Source of the DNA: Gemella sp. zg-570
GTDB taxonomy: Bacteria; Bacillota; Bacilli; Staphylococcales; Gemellaceae
Reading direction: 5' to 3'
Assembly: GCF_018866345.1 (NCBI RefSeq)
Contig: NZ_CP076443.1
Coordinates: forward strand, 1,263,501 to 1,327,500
DNA: 64,000 nt
The notes below the pieces were generated by a model, which was not told where the DNA came from, searched no databases, and saw nothing but the letters and a program-made list of their open reading frames with translations. Shown here one piece after another: positions 9,668-21,150 of the stretch. Both the position numbers and the translations under genes were made by a program. Position 1 is the stretch's first letter, and each line of letters opens with the position of its first letter.

Positions 9668-12600
9668 TTATTTTGACTCTTTGTCAATTCTTCTTCTTAA
9701 TGCTGCAAGCATTAAGGCTAATCCTAGGGCTGTAGTTGAATAAACTACTGTATTTTTCTCTGCCTCTCCTGTTTTTGTTAGTTTCTTACTTGCATGTTTT
9801 CCTTTATGCTCTGCTTTAGTAAGTTTTTTAGCTTCTTTTTCTTCTGTAGAAGCATATCCTAGATTGTCAATATTTGTTTCAAGCTTGCCTTCTTTTATTT
9901 CTTGGGCGTTTGCTTGGTTTGCATTGTTATTTTCTGGTTTAAGTTCTAAGTTATTTGCTTCTTCTTCAGGTTGGGCTGCAGCTCCTATGTTAAATTCAGG
10001 TTCTCCTAGTCCTGGATTGCCAAGTAGACCTGCCTTGTTTATTGCTTTAGCTACGTTTTCTCCTGCCGCCTTGGCTTCTTCTTCTTTTTTGGCTAGTTCA
10101 ACTTTTTCTTTAGCTTTATTTAGTTCGGCCCTAACTTCTTCTATACTCGCTGCTCCGTTGATGCTATCTTCTGCTTCTTTGGCTGCTTTTGTTATCTTGT
10201 CTTTTGCTGCGTCTTTTTGATCAGGAGTTAGGCTAGTGTTCTTGTCTATGTCTTGGTGGGCTTTGGCTTTTTCTGCTTCTATTTCACTTATTGCATCTGC
10301 TTTGGCTTTTTCTAGTTCAACTTTTGACATACCTGCAGTTTTCGATTTCTCTATTTCTTCTATTTCATCTACTTTGTTTATGTCGCTCATTGCATAGCTT
10401 ACAGCCGCAAACACTTTAGTTTTTATTAGATCTTTTTGATCAGCATTTAATAAACCATTGCCGTCTACCGCCTTATTTACTTCGTTTTGTTTTTCTGCTA
10501 AAGCCTCTATTGCAGCTATCTTACTTGTTCCTGTTGCTTTTGCTACGTTTATTTCGTTTGTGTTTGTTGCTGCATTTACTGCATCCATTGCTGCTGTTGT
10601 TGCCGCTGCTATGGCTTGTTTAGCTAAGTTTTTGTCTGCACCGTCTACGTGTTGACTGCCATCTATTGCTTTATTTGCTTGTCCTTGTTTGTCTACTAGG
10701 TCTTTTAGGGCGTCTGCCTTGTTTTCTCCTAGGTTTTTAGCTGCGTTTATTTCGTTTGTGTTTGCTGCATCATTTACTGAATCCATTGCAGCTGCTGTTG
10801 CTTCAGCTACTTTTGCTTTGGCTTTGTTTCTGTCTGCTTGGCTTACGTTTGTATTAGCGTCTATTTCCGCATTTGCTTGTCCTTGCTTGTCTACTAGGTC
10901 TTTTAGGGCGTCTGCCTTGTTTTCTCCTAGGTTTTTAGCTGCGTTTATTTCGTTTGTGTTTGCTGCATCATTTACTGCATCCATTGCTGCCGCTGTTGCT
11001 TCAGCTACTTTTGCTTTTATCGTCGCTTTTTGATTGTCATCCAGGTTGTTATTGCTGTCTACCACCTTATTTACTTGGTTTTGTTTTTCTGCTAAAGCCT
11101 CTATTGCAACTATCTTACTTGTTCCTGTTGCTTTAGCCGCGTTTATTGCCTCTGTGTCTGCTGCAGCGTTGATGTTAGCTTCTGCTTCTTTAGCGGCTGC
11201 GTCTACTTTTGCTTTGGCGTCTGCTTTTTGTTTGTCGCTTAAGCCTGGTTTGTTGTCTATGTCTTGGTGGGCTTTGGCTTTTTCTGCTTCTATTTCACTT
11301 ATTGCATCTGCTTTGGCTTTTTCTAGTTTGACTTTTTCTAAACCATTTTCTTTTGGTTGTCTTATTGCGTCTGTGTCTGCTGCTCCGTTGATGTTGTCTT
11401 CTGCTTCTTTAGCGGCTGCGTCTACTTTTGCTTTGGCGTCTGCTTTTTGTTTGTCGCTTAAGCCTGGTTTGTTGTCTATGTCTTGGTGAGCTTTGGCTTT
11501 TTCTGCTTCTATTTCACTTATTGCATCTGCTTTGGCTTTTTCTAGTTTGACTTTTTCTAAACCATTTTCTTTTGGTTGTCTTATTCCGTCTTTGTCTGGC
11601 GCAGCGTTGATGTTGTCTTCTGCTTCTTTAGCAGCTTTTGTTATCTTGTCTTTTGCTGCGTCTTTTTGATCTCTGTCTAGGTTGTTGTCAGCTTCTATTG
11701 CTTCGTGTGAGGCTTGTTTTTCTACTTCTATTTTGCTTATTGCATCTGCTTTTTCTTTTTCTAGCTCAACTTTTGTTTTACCATTTTCTTTTGGTTGTCT
11801 TATTGCGTCTGTGTCTGCTGCTCCGTTGATGTTGTCTTCTGCTTCTTTAGCGGCTGCGTCTACTTTTGCTTTGGCGTCTGCTTTTTGTTTGTCGCTTAAG
11901 CCTGGTTTGTTGTCTATGTCTTGGTGAGCTTTGGCTTTTTCTGCTTCTACTTCACTTATTGCATCTGCTTTGGCTTTTTCTAGTTTGACTTTTTCTAAAC
12001 CATTTTCTTTTGGTTGTGTTATTCCGTCTTTGTCTGGCGCAGCGTTGATGTTGTCTTCTGCTTCTTTAGCAGCTTTTGTTATCTTGTCTTTTGCTGCGTC
12101 TTTTTGATCTCTGTCTAGGTTGTTGTCAGCTTCTATTGCGTCGTTTGATGCTTGTTTTTCTACTTCTATTTTACCTATTGCGTCTGCTTTTTCTTTTTCT
12201 AGCTCAACTTTTGTTTTACCATTTTCTTTTGGTTGTGTTATTGCATTTGTGTCTGGCGCAGCGTTGATGTTGTTTTCTGCTTCTGTTGCGGCTGCGTCTA
12301 CTTTTGCTTTGGCGTCTGCTTTTTGTTTGTCGCTTAAGCCTGGTGTGTTGTCTATGTCTTGGTGAGCTTGGGCTTTTTCTGCTTCTACTTCACTTATTGC
12401 ATCTGCTTTGGCTTTTTCTAGTTTGACTTTTTCTAAACCATTTTCTTTTGGTTGTGTTATTCCGTCTTTGTCTGGCGCAGCGTTGATGTTGTCTTCTGCT
12501 TCTTTAGCAGCTTTTGTTATCTTGTCTTTTGCTGCGTCTTTTTGATCTCTGTCTAGGTTGTTGTCAGCTTCTATTGCGTCGTTTGATGCTTGTTTTTCTA

Positions 12601-12712
12601 CTTCTATTTTACCTATTGCGTCTGCTTTTTCTTTTTCTAGCTCAACTTTTGTTTTACCATTTTCTTTTGGTTGTGTTATTGCATTTGTGTCTGGCGCAGC
12701 GTTGATGTTGGC
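9668..12712 (-). CDS. Giant repeat adhesin, C-terminal part (LTKTG-anchored), out of frame with its 5' part
   Basis: This is the 3' continuation of the gene that starts at 19478. Codon phase was checked at repeated HQDID codons near 11258, 11477, 11915 and 12353. All agree with the stop at 9668, so the frame is open from about 12712 to the stop. Inside this stretch the first usable start is a GTG at 11063-11065, which is probably not a genuine start. The content is alanine- and lysine-rich helical repeats of about 60-73 residues (DUF1542-like), then a linker. It ends with KKLTKTG (LTKTG encoded at 9767-9781), a hydrophobic helix and RRRIDKESK, a sortase anchor. Without the upstream signal peptide it could not be exported, so it is functional only if the frameshifts are suppressed, reverted or sequencing errors. 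Confidence 0.75.
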   Translation of the reverse strand, partial: ANINAAPDTNAITQPKENGKTKVELEKEKADAIGKIEVEKQASNDAIEADNNLDRDQKDAAKDKITKAAKEAEDNINAAPDKDGITQPKENGLEKVKLEKAKADAISEVEAEKAQAHQDIDNTPGLSDKQKADAKAKVDAAATEAENNINAAPDTNAITQPKENGKTKVELEKEKADAIGKIEVEKQASNDAIEADNNLDRDQKDAAKDKITKAAKEAEDNINAAPDKDGITQPKENGLEKVKLEKAKADAISEVEAEKAKAHQDIDNKPGLSDKQKADAKAKVDAAAKEAEDNINGAADTDAIRQPKENGKTKVELEKEKADAISKIEVEKQASHEAIEADNNLDRDQKDAAKDKITKAAKEAEDNINAAPDKDGIRQPKENGLEKVKLEKAKADAISEIEAEKAKAHQDIDNKPGLSDKQKADAKAKVDAAAKEAEDNINGAADTDAIRQPKENGLEKVKLEKAKADAISEIEAEKAKAHQDIDNKPGLSDKQKADAKAKVDAAAKEAEANINAAADTEAINAAKATGTSKIVAIEALAEKQNQVNKVVDSNNNLDDNQKATIKAKVAEATAAAMDAVNDAANTNEINAAKNLGENKADALKDLVDKQGQANAEIDANTNVSQADRNKAKAKVAEATAAAMDSVNDAANTNEINAAKNLGENKADALKDLVDKQGQANKAIDGSQHVDGADKNLAKQAIAAATTAAMDAVNAATNTNEINVAKATGTSKIAAIEALAEKQNEVNKAVDGNGLLNADQKDLIKTKVFAAVSYAMSDINKVDEIEEIEKSKTAGMSKVELEKAKADAISEIEAEKAKAHQDIDKNTSLTPDQKDAAKDKITKAAKEAEDSINGAASIEEVRAELNKAKEKVELAKKEEEAKAAGENVAKAINKAGLLGNPGLGEPEFNIGAAAQPEEEANNLELKPENNNANQANAQEIKEGKLETNIDNLGYASTEEKEAKKLTKAEHKGKHASKKLTKTGEAEKNTVVYSTTALGLALMLAALRRRIDKESK
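10660..11060 (-). repeat. Two near-identical ~180-base coding repeats
   Basis: Two copies encode NTNEINAAKNLGENKADALKD-type repeats about 60 residues long and almost identical at DNA level (for example around 10689-10790 and 10880-10985). A third, more diverged copy precedes them in coordinate order. Confidence 0.65.
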
Positions 12713-13270
12713 TTCTCTGCTTCTTTAGCGGCTGCGTCTACTTTTGCTTTGGCGTCTGCTTTTTGTTTGTCGCTTAAGCCTGGTGTGTTGTCTATGTCTT
12801 GGTGAGCTTGGGCTTTTTCTGCTTCTACTTCACTTATTGCATCTGCTTTGGCTTTTCTAGTTTGACTTTTTCTAAACCATTTTCTTTTGGTTGTGTTATT
12901 CCGTCTTTGTCTGGCGCAGCGTTGATGTTGTCTTCTGCTTCTTTAGCAGCTTTTGTTATCTTGTCTTTTGCTGCGTCTTTTTGATCTCTGTCTAGGTTGT
13001 TGTCAGCTTCTATTGCGTCGTTTGATGCTTGTTTTTCTACTTCTATTTTACCTATTGCGTCTGCTTTTTCTTTTTCTAGCTCAACTTTTGTTTTACCATT
13101 TTCTTTTGGTTGTGTTATTGCATTTGTGTCTGGCGCAGCGTTGATGTTGGCTTCTGCTTCTTTAGCGGCTGCGTCTACTTTTGCTTTGGCGTCTGCTTTT
13201 TGTTTGTCGCTTAAGCCTGGTGTGTTGTCTATGTCTTGGTGAGCTTGGGCTTTTTCTGCTTCTACTTCAC
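11200..13270 (-). repeat. 438-base tandem coding repeats (two alternating 73-residue modules)
   Basis: Corresponding landmarks recur at 11638, 12076, 12514 and 12953, spacings of 438, 438 and 439 bases. Each unit encodes an HQDIDN-PGLSDKQKAD module followed by a NNLDRDQKDAAKDKI module. The 439-base unit contains the two indels that break the frame. Confidence 0.8.
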
Positions 13271-16200
13271 TTATTGCATCTGCTTTTGTTTGGGCTAGTT
13301 CTATTCCTGTTAAGCCGCTTGCTTTGGCTGTGTCTATTCCGTTGTTGTCTGTTGCTGCGTTGATGTCTCTTATTGCATCAGTTGCTGCTTGGTCTACTTC
13401 GTCTTTGGCTCTTTGCTGCTGTTCTGGGCTTAGGTGGTTATTTTGCTCAATTGCTGCTTTGGCGTCTGATCTGGCTAGTTCTACTTCTTCTATTGCGGCT
13501 GCTTTGGCTTTGGCCAGGTCTATTCCTGGTGTTGCTGTTTGTTTTGCTGCGTTTATGCCGTTTGTATCTGCTGCTGCGTTTACTGCTCCCATTGCATCTG
13601 CTGTTGCTGCTGCTATGGCTTGTTTAGCTAAGTCTTTGTCTGCAGGACCTACGTGTTGACTGCCGTCTATTGCTTTATTTGCTTGTCCTTGTTTGTCTGC
13701 TAGGTCTTTTAGGGCGTCTGCCTTGTTTTCTCCTAGGGTTTTAGCTGCGTTTATTTCGTTTGTGTTTGCTGCATTGTTTACTGCATCCATTGCGGCTGCT
13801 GTTGCGGCTGCTACTTTTTCTTTTGCTGCTAATTTGTCTTCTGGTCTTAGGTCTGGGTTGTTGTTTATTGCTTCATTGACTTCGTTTTGTTTTTCTGCCA
13901 GGGCTTTTATTGCATTTACTTTGTCTGTTCCTGTTGTTTTTGCTGTGTTTAAGTCTGCATCTGTTGTTGCAGCCCCTGCTGCTAGTATGGCTGCATTTGT
14001 TGCCGTAGCTACTGCGTCTTTAGCTTTTTGTTTGTCTTGGTCTTCTAGGCCAGCTTTGCCGTCTATTTCAGTGTCTGCATTTGTTTGGGCTTGTCCTAGC
14101 TCTTGTACTGCTGTGTCTTTTTTAGCTGAGTTTGTTGGAACGCCTTCTATAACTCTTGTTCCATTTGTTTTAGCAATTTCTACATCTCTGTCTGTAGTTG
14201 CAGCGTCGATATTGGCTTTTGCCTCTCTTGCCAGTCTTTCTACTTCTGCTTTTGTCGCTGCTTTTTCTTCAGCTGTTTGGTTGTTTCCTGGACCGTCTAT
14301 ATCTCTTAGTTTGTCAGCTTTACTTTGATCTATTGCATTTTTAGCATCTGTTTTTGCTCTTGAGTCTGTTGAGACGTTGTTTATGTTTGTTTCACCTAGT
14401 TTTCCTGCTTGTTTAGCTGCACCTTCAGTGTTTGTATGTGTATTATCTATTGCATCTATTGCATCTTGTTTAGCTTGTCTTACATCTCTTAATGCAGCTT
14501 GTTTTTCGCTGTCTGTCATTTTTGAGGTTCTTATTGCTTGTTCTTTGTTTTCTGCTGTTTTTTCTACACGTTTTTTAGCTAATTCTTTTGCTTTTTTCAG
14601 TACAATATCTTCTATTCCTGCATCTTTTACATCTGGTATATTATTTTTGTCTGTTTGAGCTTTTATGCTATTTACTACTCTTGCTGCTTCTGCTTTTACT
14701 GCATTTAGGACTTGTTCTTTTTCATCAGTATTTAAGAGATCATCACCGTCTATATCTGCTTGTGCTGCTTCTACTGCTGCCTCTACTGCATCTATTGCAT
14801 CTGCTTTTGTTTTGGCTAGGTCTATTCCTGTTAAGCCGCTTGCTTTGGCTGTGTCTATTCCGTTGTTGTCTGTTGCTGCGTTGATGTCTCTTATTGCATC
14901 AGTTGCTGCTTGGTCTACTTCGTCTTTGGCTGCTTGCTGCTGTTCTGGGCTTAGGTGGTTATTTTGCTCAATTGCTGCTTTGGCGTCTGATCTGGCTAGT
15001 TCTACTTCTTCTATTGCGGCTGCTTTGGCTTTGGCCAGGTCTATTCCTGGTGTTGCTGTTTGTTTTGCTGCGTTTATGCCGTTTGTATCTGCTGCTGCGT
15101 TTACTGCTCCCATTGCATCTGCTGTTGCTGCTGCTATGGCTTGTTTAGCTAAGTCTTTGTCTGCAGGACCTACGTGTTGACTGCCGTCTATTGCTTTATT
15201 TGCTTGTCCTTGTTTGTCTGCTAGGTCTTTTAGGGCGTCTGCCTTGTTTTCTCCTAGGGTTTTAGCTGCGTTTATTTCGTTTGTGTTTGCTGCATTGTTT
15301 ACTGCATCCATTGCGGCTGCTGTTGCGGCTGCTACTTTTTCTTTTGCTGCTAATTTGTCTTCTGGTCTTAGGTCTGGGTTGTTGTTTATTGCTTCATTGA
15401 CTTCGTTTTGTTTTTCTGCCAGGGCTTTTATTGCATTTACTTTGTCTGTTCCTGTTGTTTTTGCTGTGTTTAAGTCTGCATCTGTTGTTGCAGCCCCTGC
15501 TGCTAGTATGGCTGCATTTGTTGCCGTAGCTACTGCGTCTTTAGCTTTTTGTTTGTCTTGGTCTTCTAGGCCAGCTTTGCCGTCTATTTCAGTGTCTGCA
15601 TTTGTTTGGGCTTGTCCTAGCTCTTGTACTGCTGTGTCTTTTTTAGCTGAGTTTGTTGGAACGCCTTCTATAACTCTTGTTCCATTTGTTTTAGCAATTT
15701 CTACATCTCTGTCTGTAGTTGCAGCGTCGATATTGGCTTTTGCCTCTCTTGCCAGTCTTTCTACTTCTGCTTTTGTCGCTGCTTTTTCTTCAGCTGTTTG
15801 GTTGTTTCCTGGACCGTCTATATCTCTTAGTTTGTCAGCTTTACTTTGATCTATTGCATTTTTAGCATCTGTTTTTGCTCTTGAGTCTGTTGAGACGTTG
15901 TTTATGTTTGTTTCACCTAGTTTTCCTGCTTGTTTAGCTGCACCTTCAGTGTTTGTATGTGTATTATCTATTGCATCTATTGCATCTTGTTTAGCTTGTC
16001 TTACATCTCTTAATGCAGCTTGTTTTTCGCTGTCTGTCATTTTTGAGGTTCTTATTGCTTGTTCTTTGTTTTCTGCTGTTTTTTCTACACGTTTTTTAGC
16101 TAATTCTTTTGCTTTTTTCAGTACAATATCTTCTATTCCTGCATCTTTTACATCTGGTATATTATTTTTGTCTGTTTGAGCTTTTATGCTATTTACTACT

Positions 16201-19200
16201 CTTGCTGCTTCTGCTTTTACTGCATTTAGGACTTGTTCTTTTTCATCAGTATTTAAGAGATCATCACCGTCTATATCTGCTTGTGCTGCTTCTACTGCTG
16301 CCTCTACTGCATCTATTGCATCTGCTTTTGTTTTGGCTAGGTCTATTCCTGTTAAGCCGCTTGCTTTGGCTGTGTTTATTCCGTTGTTGTCTGTTGCTGC
16401 GTTGATGTCTCTTATTGCATCAGTTGCTGCTTGGTCTACTTCGTCTTTGGCTGCTTGCTGCTGTTCTGGGCTTAGGTGGTTATTTTGCTCAATTGCTGCT
16501 TTGGCGTCTGATCTGGCTAGTTCTACTTCTTCTATTGCGGCTGCTTTGGCTTTGGCCAGGTCTATTCCTGGTGTTGCTGTTTGTTTTGCTGCGTTTATGC
16601 CGTTTGTATCTGCTGCTGCGTTTACTGCTCCCATTGCATCTGCTGTTGCTGCTGCTATGGCTTGTTTAGCTAAGTCTTTGTCTGCAGGACCTACGTGTTG
16701 ACTGCCGTCTATTGCTTTATTTGCTTGTCCTTGTTTGTCTGCTAGGTCTTTTAGGGCGTCTGCCTTGTTTTCTCCTAGGGTTTTAGCTGCGTTTATTTCG
16801 TTTGTGTTTGCTGCATTGTTTACTGCATCCATTGCGGCTGCTGTTGCGGCTGCTACTTTTTCTTTTGCTGCTAATTTGTCTTCTGGTCTTAGGTCTGGGT
16901 TGTTGTTTATTGCTTCATTGACTTCGTTTTGTTTTTCTGCCAGGGCTTTTATTGCATTTACTTTGTCTGTTCCTGTTGTTTTTGCTGTGTTTAAGTCTGC
17001 ATCTGTTGTTGCAGCCCCTGCTGCTAGTATGGCTGCATTTGTTGCCGTAGCTACTGCGTCTTTAGCTTTTTGTTTGTCTTGGTCTTCTAGGCCAGCTTTG
17101 CCGTCTATTTCAGTGTCTGCATTTGTTTGGGCTTGTCCTAGCTCTTGTACTGCTGTGTTTACGCTCTCACCATTAAGTGCATTTTTGGCATTTTCTAATG
17201 CTGTTACCGCCACATTTACCTCTGTTTGACTCGCATCTGGTTTATCCTTAATTTGTTTAGCATTTTGCAGGGCTTGGTCGAAGGCATTCCTAAAACTTTC
17301 ATGTGCTGAAGTGTACTTAGTTTGACTTTTAAGATTATCTCCTTCTGTTACCTTTGCTATTAAGTCGTCCTTATCTGTTACGTCATAAGTAATACTTTTA
17401 GTTACGGTATCACTAGTACCATCTGGAAAGTTATAGGTTACGACTATCCTAGCCGTCTTGTTAGTGCCAGCATTTGCTGTGTCAGGGGCTGTTTGCCAAG
17501 CGTAATTTATGATCGTCCTGTTCATAGAATCTGCTTCGATAGCACTTCTATTGCTAATAAAATCTTCTGGATTACCAAGACTTGCATTTTTTGCTACGGT
17601 CTTCTTAGTCGTAGTTGGCAGGGCTTGGGGTAGGACTACCAATAAACCCGGGTCAAGGTCGACATCAGTTATAGCGTCTGTAACACCAGAAAAATCTGTA
17701 GCTGAAGTTTTATATTTTAGAGTTCCCTTCAATTCATACTCTTTCTTTTCCGTAATATTATCAGGAACACTTACTGCAAACTTCAGAGTCTTGGGATTTT
17801 CATGTGTAAGAGTTCCTTTCGCTACTCCCTTAGACCCAGAAAGAGTCCAAGAATTCCACTCATTATTATTATTATTATTTGGACCAGCTTCGGCAAAGCT
17901 TAATCCAGAACTATTTGGTGCCGTAACAACCCAACCTTCAAGCCTGGTTGGAGCATCTTCGGCAAAGGCTTTAACACTTACGCCGTTGAATGTCGCCTTA
18001 TGTGCCGCCCCACCAGAAACAGCATACTTGGTTGTAGGGACATAGTCCGTAGTTACTCCCCCAGGGTTTACAACTCTAAAATTACGTGCTAGCATGGTTG
18101 AATACTTATGAGTCCAATCAGCCGCAGAGTAGTCGTCCCACATTTTAATACGTATTTTATTAACATTATCAGGTATAGAAACAAATTTTATTTGATTACC
18201 ACGATTTATTTTTGTATCCTGAACAATTGCATCCTGCTCATTTCCCATGGCGTCCACAGAATGTATACTAATATGTACTGGATGTCTCGTATTACTAGAA
18301 CCAATGACTAAATTTGCTGAGTCGGCTACCTCAAAACCAAAAACAAACTTTGAACCTGGATTTACATCAACATCCTGATAAAATCCCTCATAACCTACTT
18401 CTCGACGGGCATTTTGTTTTTTAAAATATTCAGCAAATTTTCCAAGAGATAGGTATTTTGTATTGGGTTTTACCGATACCCCATCAAAAGCTGACTGCAT
18501 GTAGTTTTCCATAACAGTTACATAACCATCTTGGGCTATGGGTTTCCAGCCAAATGCATTCCTCTGGTCTTCTGTCAAATCACTAGGCTTAATATCAAGA
18601 TATTTGGCCTGTCCACCTCTTTCGGCATAAGCATTACCAGTTCCTCGACTGGGCATAACCAGGTTATTCAGGGAGGCAGGAAGATTGTCTAAGTTCCCAT
18701 TAACAAATGAACCATGACGTTCTTTCTTGCTTTTTTCACGATCTTGAGGAAGAGTAGTCGCATTATTTCTAAACTCATGCCCACGAATATTCGTAACATT
18801 ATTATTTGGAGCTGGACTAGCCTGCCTTCTACTTCTTTTTAGGGGCTTGTTGGCCTTTTTGTATTCCTGGTAGGCTACAGATTCTTGCAGAGCCTTTTGT
18901 TGCTCATCTGATAGGCTGTCTACCACCTCTTGACTAGGCTTTAGGTCTTCAAAGTCTTTAAGTGTTAGCTTTTTTAAGTCTTCAGGCTCCATGTTTTTGA
19001 AGTCTTCAATGGTGATGTGCCTCTCTTTTTCTTCTGCTTTTTCCTCTGTTTTTTCTTCTCTTGCTTCTCTATCTTCAGCTTTTTTATTTTCAGCTTTTCC
19101 AGCCTCAGCTTTTTTATTTTCAGAGCCTAAATTGGCTGGGCTTTTTTCTGCAGTCGACTCCAGACTCTCCCCCTTTTCTAAGGCCTGGTCTCCTGTCTTG

Positions 19201-19478
19201 GCTTCTGCCCCACTTGGCAGGGCGCTTGCTTTTTCCTTGTCTTCTTGTTTGTCCTCTTTCTTATCCTCTTTAGCTCTTGCCTGTCCTGCTTTTGGGCTTG
19301 TTGGATTTTCTGGCCCACTTGCTTCTTCTAGGGGCTGGACACTTGTTAGAGTATCTGGATTTTCCTTTTCACTGGCAAAAACTTGTGGCGTAACTAAGAG
19401 GAAAGATCCAAGGAAAATTGAACCTACTCCTATCTTGAATTTACGTATTGAAAACCTGTCTTTTTTCTTGTGATACAT
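12834..19478 (-). CDS. Giant YSIRK-type repeat adhesin, N-terminal 2214 residues
   Basis: The ATG at 19476-19478 follows AGGAGG. The signal peptide carries the YSIRK/GS motif FSIRKFKIGVGSIFLGS. Domains in order: a charged Lys/Glu/Ala-rich region (about 40-215), then a globular non-repeat region (about 225-640) that includes six consecutive Asn. A Rib-like segment with VTYNFPDGTSDTV follows, then a FIVAR-type helix near residue 735, then DUF1542-like three-helix repeats to the end. Two 507-residue blocks and part of a third are nearly identical. The frame fails after a one-base deletion near 12850 and ends in KPKQMQ. The intact allele would total about 3270 codons including the part down to 9668. 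It is a likely wall-anchored fibrillar adhesin. The ligand cannot be read from the sequence. Confidence 0.85.
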   Translation of the reverse strand: MYHKKKDRFSIRKFKIGVGSIFLGSFLLVTPQVFASEKENPDTLTSVQPLEEASGPENPTSPKAGQARAKEDKKEDKQEDKEKASALPSGAEAKTGDQALEKGESLESTAEKSPANLGSENKKAEAGKAENKKAEDREAREEKTEEKAEEKERHITIEDFKNMEPEDLKKLTLKDFEDLKPSQEVVDSLSDEQQKALQESVAYQEYKKANKPLKRSRRQASPAPNNNVTNIRGHEFRNNATTLPQDREKSKKERHGSFVNGNLDNLPASLNNLVMPSRGTGNAYAERGGQAKYLDIKPSDLTEDQRNAFGWKPIAQDGYVTVMENYMQSAFDGVSVKPNTKYLSLGKFAEYFKKQNARREVGYEGFYQDVDVNPGSKFVFGFEVADSANLVIGSSNTRHPVHISIHSVDAMGNEQDAIVQDTKINRGNQIKFVSIPDNVNKIRIKMWDDYSAADWTHKYSTMLARNFRVVNPGGVTTDYVPTTKYAVSGGAAHKATFNGVSVKAFAEDAPTRLEGWVVTAPNSSGLSFAEAGPNNNNNNEWNSWTLSGSKGVAKGTLTHENPKTLKFAVSVPDNITEKKEYELKGTLKYKTSATDFSGVTDAITDVDLDPGLLVVLPQALPTTTKKTVAKNASLGNPEDFISNRSAIEADSMNRTIINYAWQTAPDTANAGTNKTARIVVTYNFPDGTSDTVTKSITYDVTDKDDLIAKVTEGDNLKSQTKYTSAHESFRNAFDQALQNAKQIKDKPDASQTEVNVAVTALENAKNALNGESVNTAVQELGQAQTNADTEIDGKAGLEDQDKQKAKDAVATATNAAILAAGAATTDADLNTAKTTGTDKVNAIKALAEKQNEVNEAINNNPDLRPEDKLAAKEKVAAATAAAMDAVNNAANTNEINAAKTLGENKADALKDLADKQGQANKAIDGSQHVGPADKDLAKQAIAAATADAMGAVNAAADTNGINAAKQTATPGIDLAKAKAAAIEEVELARSDAKAAIEQNNHLSPEQQQAAKDEVDQAATDAIRDINAATDNNGINTAKASGLTGIDLAKTKADAIDAVEAAVEAAQADIDGDDLLNTDEKEQVLNAVKAEAARVVNSIKAQTDKNNIPDVKDAGIEDIVLKKAKELAKKRVEKTAENKEQAIRTSKMTDSEKQAALRDVRQAKQDAIDAIDNTHTNTEGAAKQAGKLGETNINNVSTDSRAKTDAKNAIDQSKADKLRDIDGPGNNQTAEEKAATKAEVERLAREAKANIDAATTDRDVEIAKTNGTRVIEGVPTNSAKKDTAVQELGQAQTNADTEIDGKAGLEDQDKQKAKDAVATATNAAILAAGAATTDADLNTAKTTGTDKVNAIKALAEKQNEVNEAINNNPDLRPEDKLAAKEKVAAATAAAMDAVNNAANTNEINAAKTLGENKADALKDLADKQGQANKAIDGSQHVGPADKDLAKQAIAAATADAMGAVNAAADTNGINAAKQTATPGIDLAKAKAAAIEEVELARSDAKAAIEQNNHLSPEQQQAAKDEVDQAATDAIRDINAATDNNGIDTAKASGLTGIDLAKTKADAIDAVEAAVEAAQADIDGDDLLNTDEKEQVLNAVKAEAARVVNSIKAQTDKNNIPDVKDAGIEDIVLKKAKELAKKRVEKTAENKEQAIRTSKMTDSEKQAALRDVRQAKQDAIDAIDNTHTNTEGAAKQAGKLGETNINNVSTDSRAKTDAKNAIDQSKADKLRDIDGPGNNQTAEEKAATKAEVERLAREAKANIDAATTDRDVEIAKTNGTRVIEGVPTNSAKKDTAVQELGQAQTNADTEIDGKAGLEDQDKQKAKDAVATATNAAILAAGAATTDADLNTAKTTGTDKVNAIKALAEKQNEVNEAINNNPDLRPEDKLAAKEKVAAATAAAMDAVNNAANTNEINAAKTLGENKADALKDLADKQGQANKAIDGSQHVGPADKDLAKQAIAAATADAMGAVNAAADTNGINAAKQTATPGIDLAKAKAAAIEEVELARSDAKAAIEQNNHLSPEQQQRAKDEVDQAATDAIRDINAATDNNGIDTAKASGLTGIELAQTKADAISEVEAEKAQAHQDIDNTPGLSDKQKADAKAKVDAAAKEAEANINAAPDTNAITQPKENGKTKVELEKEKADAIGKIEVEKQASNDAIEADNNLDRDQKDAAKDKITKAAKEAEDNINAAPDKDGITQPKENGLEKVKLEKPKQMQ
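13290..17158 (-). repeat. 1521-base long-period tandem duplication within the adhesin gene
   Basis: Blocks at 15638-17158 and 14117-15637 are nearly identical over 1521 bases (507 codons), and a third partial copy covers about 13290-14116. Visible differences are few: the Asn/Asp codon at 16374 versus 14853, and an Arg/Ala codon near 13410 in the partial copy. Confidence 0.85.
17862..17879 (-). repeat. Six-unit ATT trinucleotide repeat encoding six Asn
   Basis: Six ATT triplets on the plus strand read as AAT (Asn) codons in the globular region of the adhesin. Slippage by whole units would keep the frame and change a loop length. Confidence 0.7.
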
Positions 19479-19575
19479 TATATCCTCCTATGATTTTTTC
19501 AAAATATATGTTTATTTCTTCTAATTATTTATTTTATTCGTTTAAATAGTATAAAAATTTAGTAGTTTTAGTTAT

Positions 19576-19603
19576 ATTCTACCCCCCCCCCCGATTTTGT
19601 CAA
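19576..19603 (-). promoter_or_regulatory. Adhesin promoter with an 11-G tract in the spacer
   Basis: Read on the minus strand: a consensus -35 TTGACA (19598-19603), the spacer AAATC plus eleven G (19582-19597, 16 bases), then -10 TAGAAT (19576-19581). The start codon is at 19478, giving a leader of about 90 bases. One extra G would produce a 17-base spacer. No equally good promoter is seen between it and the gene. Confidence 0.8.
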
Positions 19604-19747: not shown

Positions 19748-19778
19748 AAAGACAAGTAGGCTATTTTAACTTGTCTTT
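19748..19778 (-). terminator. Terminator after the RlmCD-type methyltransferase gene
   Basis: AAAGACAAGT and ACTTGTCTTT form a stem, with T-rich sequence following on the minus strand. It separates the methyltransferase from the adhesin promoter. Confidence 0.75.
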
Positions 19779-19800: not shown

Positions 19801-21150
19801 TTATATCTTTCTTTTAGTCAATAAGGTTACTACTTCAACACTCGCTGTTTGGGGGAACATGTCCACAGGTTGAACTTTTTCCAACTTGTATTTTTTCAGC
19901 AATATTTTTAAATCTTTTGCCAGTGTCGATGGATTGCAGCTCACATAAACTATACGCTTGGCATTTGCAGTCAATAAATATTTGGCTAAATTACCCAGCC
20001 CCGCTCTGGGTGGGTCTACAATAGCTACATCAAATTTATGACCTTCTTTTTTCAATTTTGGCATAACTTTGCCAACATGACCTAGCTCGTAATAACAGTT
20101 TTTTAAATTATTTAATTCTGCATTTTCTTTGGCATTTTTTATGGCTTCTTCTACTATATCTATGCCGTAAACTTCCTTGCAATATTTACTCACATACTGT
20201 CCTATACTTCCTACACCACAAAAAGCGTCTAAGACCAGTTCATTTTTCTTCAAATCAGCAAATTCTACTACCTTGTCATAAAGATTTTTAGTTTGCAGTG
20301 GATTTAATTGGAAGAAAGAATTAGCCGACAGTTTATATTCAATATCTCCTATTTTTTCTGTGATGTGGTCTTGACCGTAAAGAACTATATTTTCTTCTCC
20401 CATAAGCAAATGACTTTTTTCATTTCTTATATTCAAAACTATACTTTTAACAATGCGCTCTCTTTTTAATTCCCTTACCAACTTGTCTAAACCAGCAATA
20501 TTTTTTGTATTGGCAACAAATATTACCTGCATATCTCCATTGGAAAATGATACTCTTGTTGAAATATATTTTATACCCTCAAAACGTTTTGAAATTGATA
20601 CGGGAATTTTAAATCTTGCTATATATTTTTTACAGACTTCTATAATCCTATTACTGTCTTCATGCTGAACTATACAATCCTTAATATCCACAAGTTCGTT
20701 TGTTCCCTCTTTGTATAGACCAGCTACAACTCTTCCATCTTTATTTATGGCCACTGGAAACTGATTTTTATTGCGATAGTGATACTGTTTAGGGCTTGGT
20801 AAGACTTGCTTAATTATATTTTCTGGATTTTTTATATTTAGGTATTTATTAAAGGCATCAATAACAATTTCACGCTTAAAGTCTAACTGCTTGGCATAAT
20901 TTACATGGACTAGACCGTAGGCTCCACTTTCTAAAAATTCAGGACGCACAGCCTCAAGCCTGTCTGGACTTTTTTCCTTGATACTCAATAATTTTGCCCT
21001 AATATATTTTGGAGTCTCCTCCTCAATTTCACAATTAACCACTTCATTTGGCAAGGCTCCTTTTACAAAAGTTATTTTCTTTTTGTAATAGCCGATACCC
21101 TCGCCATTAATTCCTATTTTTTTTATTGTTAATAAAATTTTTCTAGCCAT
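19801..21150 (-). CDS. rlmD: 23S rRNA (uracil-5-)-methyltransferase, RlmD/RlmCD (TrmA) family
   Basis: The 449-residue protein has an N-terminal TRAM domain (about 1-60) and a C-terminal SAM-dependent methyltransferase domain. The latter contains LDAFCGVGSIGQ near residue 310, DPPRAGL near 382 and the catalytic motif VSCNPST with Cys405. It methylates uracil C5 in 23S rRNA. In Bacilli the single homologue (RlmCD) handles both sites that E. coli RlmC and RlmD modify. The four-cysteine Fe-S motif usually found after the TRAM domain is absent: the region reads LESGAYGLVHVNYAKQLD with no cysteines. The exact target base cannot be assigned from sequence alone. Confidence 0.85.
   Translation of the reverse strand: MARKILLTIKKIGINGEGIGYYKKKITFVKGALPNEVVNCEIEEETPKYIRAKLLSIKEKSPDRLEAVRPEFLESGAYGLVHVNYAKQLDFKREIVIDAFNKYLNIKNPENIIKQVLPSPKQYHYRNKNQFPVAINKDGRVVAGLYKEGTNELVDIKDCIVQHEDSNRIIEVCKKYIARFKIPVSISKRFEGIKYISTRVSFSNGDMQVIFVANTKNIAGLDKLVRELKRERIVKSIVLNIRNEKSHLLMGEENIVLYGQDHITEKIGDIEYKLSANSFFQLNPLQTKNLYDKVVEFADLKKNELVLDAFCGVGSIGQYVSKYCKEVYGIDIVEEAIKNAKENAELNNLKNCYYELGHVGKVMPKLKKEGHKFDVAIVDPPRAGLGNLAKYLLTANAKRIVYVSCNPSTLAKDLKILLKKYKLEKVQPVDMFPQTASVEVVTLLTKRKI

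Follow-up and report, generated by a model that had tools for sequence, protein, structure and literature searches.

What the run of eleven G is doing in the promoter of a giant surface adhesin is the question raised by this locus, which lies in a window of 64 kb, the whole stretch of DNA analysed here. Read on the minus strand, positions 19603-19576 are TTGACA AAATC GGGGGGGGGGG TAGAAT: a perfect -35 hexamer (19598..19603), a constant spacer part AAATC (19593..19597), a G11 homopolymer that we propose as a slippage tract and that directly abuts the -10 box (19582..19592), and a -10 hexamer matching the consensus at five of six positions (19576..19581), so that the spacer measures 5 + 11 = 16 nt. 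A reading made earlier from the letters alone, hereafter the sequence-only reading, had described exactly these boxes, this AAATC plus eleven G and this distance, and had placed the G run precisely within the spacer; both statements hold to the base. In a consensus scan the pair scores 11/12 against TTGACA/TATAAT, and it is the best promoter in the intergenic region 5' of the adhesin. The features present are boxes that flank the tract, a G/C homopolymer of at least 8 in the spacer, a spacer within 17±2 and a surface gene downstream. We set aside a promoter-like pair on the plus strand that overlaps the site, since such pairs occur at chance level in the 64-kb window (2 found, 3.1 expected).

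The position of the promoter fits a role in adhesin expression. It lies 98 nt 5' of the start codon (ATG at 19478), and if transcription starts about 7 nt past the -10 box, the predicted 5' untranslated region would be about 90 nt long (19479..19569, minus strand); a ribosome-binding site, AGGAGG, is found at 19484..19489 on the same strand. The gene upstream, which encodes a 449-residue RNA methyltransferase, ends at 19801 and is closed by a terminator-like hairpin recognized by eye (AAAGACAAGT / ACTTGTCTTT, then a T run; 19748..19778, minus strand), so the adhesin probably needs a promoter of its own. The rule-based terminator scan missed this hairpin, whose loop exceeds the scan's rule.

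The gene that follows is, as had been claimed, a giant surface adhesin. Its open frame of 2,214 codons (12834..19478, minus strand) comprises a YSIRK signal peptide together with 16 DUF1542 stretches, after which it breaks; the continuation, in another frame (9668..12724, minus strand), encodes DUF1542 repeats and a C-terminal LTKTG-like anchor that includes a hydrophobic segment and basic tail. The break, located in the assembly near 12834-12724, reflects either a real inactivation or an assembly error in 1.5-kb near-identical repeats. A protein search of the genome_contigs database with the N-terminal 618 residues of the adhesin returned no confirmed relative, and the 64-kb window contains no Rfam family and no tRNA.

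Both the window and the genome mark the G tract as exceptional. C11/G11 is the sole run of G or C of at least 7 in the window and the sole one of at least 9 in the 1,558,665-base genome. Under a first-order Markov model of the window, the expected density of G/C runs of at least 11 is 0.0096 per Mb, or about 0.015 per genome, which bears out the earlier judgement that such a run is very unlikely by chance. The same model expects 2.5 runs of at least 8 per genome; the rest of the genome contains three G8 runs, and by these expectations they are ordinary and the G11 is not. We dismissed the three as further contingency sites, their number being that of chance and 0/3 lying in promoters: none has a promoter-like context, and by eye all look coding. 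C8/G8 runs at G000:C1:676486 (L003) and 1187121 (L004) fall, again by eye, inside hsdS-like type I restriction specificity genes. The exact count of eleven calls for caution, as it rests on a consensus assembly with frame breaks in both the adhesin and its paralogue.

The same design recurs across the genus. A search pattern consisting of TTGACA, up to 10 bases, at least 7 G, up to 8 bases and TANNAT matched in the window's genome and in three of five other genus genomes, and the two genomes without a match are only 66-72% complete; among near-complete genomes, 4/4 carry poly-G spacer promoters, with 7 sites in total. Their spacers measure 16, 20, 15, 17, 19, 21 and 17 nt and their tracts 9-12 G, and at all seven the Gs lie on the coding strand, directly against the -10 box. 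Of the genes that follow, six encode YSIRK-type signals (short and weak in one case) and the seventh a KxYKxGKxW signal with serine-rich repeats, making surface proteins of all seven. We found only about 36 YSIRK genes in the genus genomes, and a set of sites that precedes surface-protein genes in 7/7 cases is therefore far from random; since most of these YSIRK genes lack poly-G, the device marks a subset of them. Of twelve G runs of at least 8 in the genus, seven belong to poly-G spacer promoters and five do not; a G9 in a secA-like gene and an intergenic G10 without promoter boxes both fall outside the pattern. The pattern is absent from all nine sister-genus genomes, a slightly narrower version applied to 157 genomes of the order found it in none of the 151 outside the genus, and a reversed control pattern had no match in all 157.

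The sequence-only reading had also proposed that tract lengths be compared across related genomes, a check that could be carried through in part: the design is present at seven genus sites with 9-12 G, but no ortholog of the window promoter itself was found among the other genus genomes. The most similar pair of sites, L009 (G11) and L015 (G12) from two other species, was rejected as an orthologous comparison, the spacer motif being common and the flank too little for orthology. Two further observations concern promoter repeats in the genus. One YSIRK gene (L169, G011:C199) has a promoter TTGACA...GGGGTAGGGGTATAAT with an interrupted tract, GGGGTAGGGG, in the spacer position, which looks like a decayed version of a poly-G spacer. 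Separately, genomes G010 and G012 carry poly-A/T runs of 14-18 in front of YSIRK-type or similar surface genes, about 50-165 nt 5' of the start codon (L196, L202, L204, L206, L193, L208); these may form a second class of repeat in promoters, comparable to that of H. pylori sabA, and no such run occurs in the window's genome.

Taken from sequence comparison, the adhesin promoter is very probably a slipped-strand phase-variable promoter that works through spacer length. We propose that RNA polymerase would read TTGACA and TAGAAT as its -35 and -10 boxes, and that replication slippage on the G11 tract would add or remove one or more G, changing the distance between the boxes from 16 nt at G11 to 17 at G12 or 15 at G10. 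Such a change would raise or cut adhesin transcription, and a clonal population would come to contain cells with strong, intermediate and weak expression of a large surface adhesin. For the model to hold, this promoter must be the active one, slippage of the tract must be frequent in this organism, and expression must depend on the length of the spacer.

Poly-G spacer switches belong to the textbook repertoire of Neisseria and Treponema, and to our knowledge are scarcely recorded in Gram-positive cocci. The porA promoter of Neisseria meningitidis carries poly-G between its -35 and -10 boxes with an optimum at 17 nt (PMC7864442); it shares the poly-G spacer with the adhesin promoter but drives a Gram-negative porin, and its tract and switching were tested by experiment. 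The promoter of tp0126, which encodes an OmpW-like protein of Treponema pallidum, likewise has poly-G between -35 and -10 and is transcribed best at 17 nt (PMC7864442); here the product is a spirochaete outer-membrane protein and the promoter was tested with reporters. The third is PPA1880 of Propionibacterium (Cutibacterium) acnes, where the promoter of a putative Gram-positive adhesin has a G tract of varying length in its spacer: 11, 13 or 15 G correspond to spacers of 18, 20 and 23, and secretion was seen only in the strain with 18, the other two states being silent (PMC3224659). It differs in belonging to a high-GC actinobacterium and in that a YSIRK signal was not reported, and that work also allowed for a coding interpretation. 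We take these three to be the right analogues. Since porA and tp0126 have their optimum at 17 nt and PPA1880 is secreted at 18, we would expect expression of the adhesin to be highest at G12, active but submaximal at G11, and low at G10.

Two further systems were compared. The sequence-only reading had named porA and opc of Neisseria as parallels; the first is apt, while the second is a loose one: the poly-C of N. meningitidis opc also switches a surface protein from within its promoter, but there it covers the -35 region and not the spacer (PMC7864442). In Streptococcus pyogenes, the length of a T tract upstream of the LPXTG protein Spy1336/R28 sets transcript level, with 9 or 10 T in most isolates (PMC7098570); this resembles the adhesin locus in having a homopolymer of consequential length 5' of a surface protein, but it is an intergenic T tract between divergent genes and not a G tract in a spacer. 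The kind of promoter with a homopolymer in its spacer is already known, with a Gram-positive precedent in P. acnes, and what is new is a genus-wide, surface-gene-restricted set in Gram-positive cocci. Our search of the open-access literature (subscription papers lay outside its scope) turned up no earlier account of poly-G spacer promoters in Gemella-like bacteria or streptococci; the sequence-only reading, too, knew of no description in this organism.

Beyond the genus, the design is found in streptococci. Among 399 genomes spread over the class, poly-G spacer promoters occur in only two genera, the window's and Streptococcus, where 39/284 species, each represented by one genome, carry 63 sites and the control pattern finds none. 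The streptococcal pattern requires at least 8 G and leaves shorter states out, so that the observed spacers (mostly 15-22, with a mode of 19) form a distribution biased upwards. A simple rule detects a secretion-type signal in 44/63 of the proteins downstream, versus 32/66 of the other ORFs in these loci and 11/40 in the window. Many of the downstream genes encode YSIRK or similar surface proteins; because galE-like and capsule-like genes also follow such promoters, the design in streptococci is not exclusively a surface-gene device. The non-surface targets, assigned by eye, comprise capsule-type, galE-like and DivIVA/GpsB-like genes (L258, L306, L307, L312, L257, L272, L289, L291), and a conserved family starting MEQFNQEQLYG is also among the targets that are not of the surface type.

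Orthologous streptococcal promoters differ in the tract and hardly anywhere else. Four promoters of the MEQFNQEQLYG family, whose 650-bp flanks are separated by 3-15 substitutions and no more than a single indel, have G10, G11, G8 and G11; another pair has G10 versus G8 with 6 substitutions and 0 indels in the flank, and a galE-like pair G10 versus G8 with 8 substitutions and 4 indels. Flanks are 97-100% identical among promoters that differ in tract length (G8, G10, G11), and the tract changes shift the spacer (17, 19, 20) with no compensation elsewhere. These comparisons show the tract to be the fast-changing element of these streptococcal promoters, with differences that lie between species, not within a population.

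This last point touches a different account of the same promoter, in which it is real but its tract is stable on population time scales, so that strain-level lengths tune expression slowly and no switching takes place within a population. P. acnes would be a precedent, as its tract lengths follow the phylogenetic clades, a pattern interpreted as slow accumulation (PMC4746626), and the streptococcal differences, being between species, are compatible with it. We nonetheless consider a stable tract unlikely: streptococcal flanks with no more than 6 substitutions in 650 bp are already 1-2 G apart, and poly-G tracts of T. pallidum vary within an isolate (PMC7864442). Slippage within populations remains our preferred explanation, and the proposal of a phase-variation switch made by the sequence-only reading gains support from two directions, namely from seven genus sites that precede surface genes with spacers of 15-21, and from streptococcal tracts that vary while their flanks hardly do.

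A wider scan of genome_contigs, in which at least 9 G were required and spacers of 9-21 permitted, found that at least 119 stretches across many phyla match the poly-G design. Among the matches listed, which include S. sciuri, S. orisratti and a strain filed as S. suis, 122/123 sites have a spacer of 15-21, and in 107 the -10 box follows the tract immediately; because spacers down to 9 were permitted, this clustering fits real promoters and not chance. Judged by these matches, the poly-G spacer architecture is recurrent and probably convergent. A first impression that spacers of 17 were under-represented was set aside, as the pattern's minimum tract and maximum constant part bias the lengths. 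Sites in distant phyla include L134 and L118 (Microcystis), L087 (Streptobacillus) and L092 and L101 (Treponema); the 28-mer of Microcystis wesenbergii (L134) is identical to that of the window, presumably by convergence.

The pattern of spacers also speaks to whether the effect of the G tract might depend on DNA structure or on a bound factor, say by way of a two-tetrad G-quadruplex or a regulator site, and not on -35/-10 spacing. By our own reasoning eleven G would suffice, if barely, for a minimal two-tetrad quadruplex, but tracts of just 8 or 9 G occur at many sites, the tracts abut the -10 box, and it is the total spacer, not the length of the tract, that clusters at 15-21; we regard an effect of this kind as very improbable. 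Least credible is that a random G run happens to lie beside promoter-like boxes or was produced by the assembly, for although such boxes are common in AT-rich DNA (as the 2 pairs found against 3.1 expected in the window illustrate) and homopolymer lengths in assemblies are uncertain, only 0.015 such runs are expected per genome and seven independent genus sites all precede surface genes against a control of zero; at the level of the whole genus, this explanation is already refuted.

A promoter that switches by spacer length may not be the only stochastic device acting on adhesins in this genome. A paralogous YSIRK adhesin at G000:C1 ~902,900 has the same signal peptide and an unrelated upstream region, and its frame is also broken and ends early. 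Just 5' of its start codon is a segment bounded by two palindromic 26-bp sites, GTTCTAAAAACTAGGATTTTTAGAAC and its inverse (L186:9970-10120 = G000:C1:902969-903119), and we detected no strong promoter consensus inside it. Pairs of related sites, spaced about 126-138 bp, are located near or upstream of other secreted-protein genes at G000:C1:1198555/1198693 and G000:C1:530822/530948. Once set in one orientation, all six 26-bp sites have AG at positions 13-14, and a constant AG centre is the expectation for sites of Hin-type serine invertases; a serine recombinase gene of Hin size is located at G000:C1:988005-988442. We therefore list the inverted site pairs as candidate serine-invertase invertible promoters. 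Combining the two loci, we suggest tentatively, and at slightly under an even chance, that the duplicated adhesin copies are under two unrelated stochastic switches, one acting by poly-G slippage and the other through inverted 26-bp sites of serine-invertase type, and that poly-G spacer promoters are a recurrent contingency device in Gemellaceae-like bacteria and streptococci.

If this is true, the on/off states of two antigenically different adhesins with a common signal region and repeats would be set independently in each cell. If poly-G spacer promoters do switch as proposed, one short pattern would predict which surface proteins are randomly switched across an entire genus and dozens of Streptococcus species. 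The streptococcal promoters with near-identical flanks but different tracts offer natural tests of how spacer length acts, and sequencing reads that already exist give the tract length directly. Such switching would bear on colonisation, on immune evasion and on the choice of vaccine antigens.
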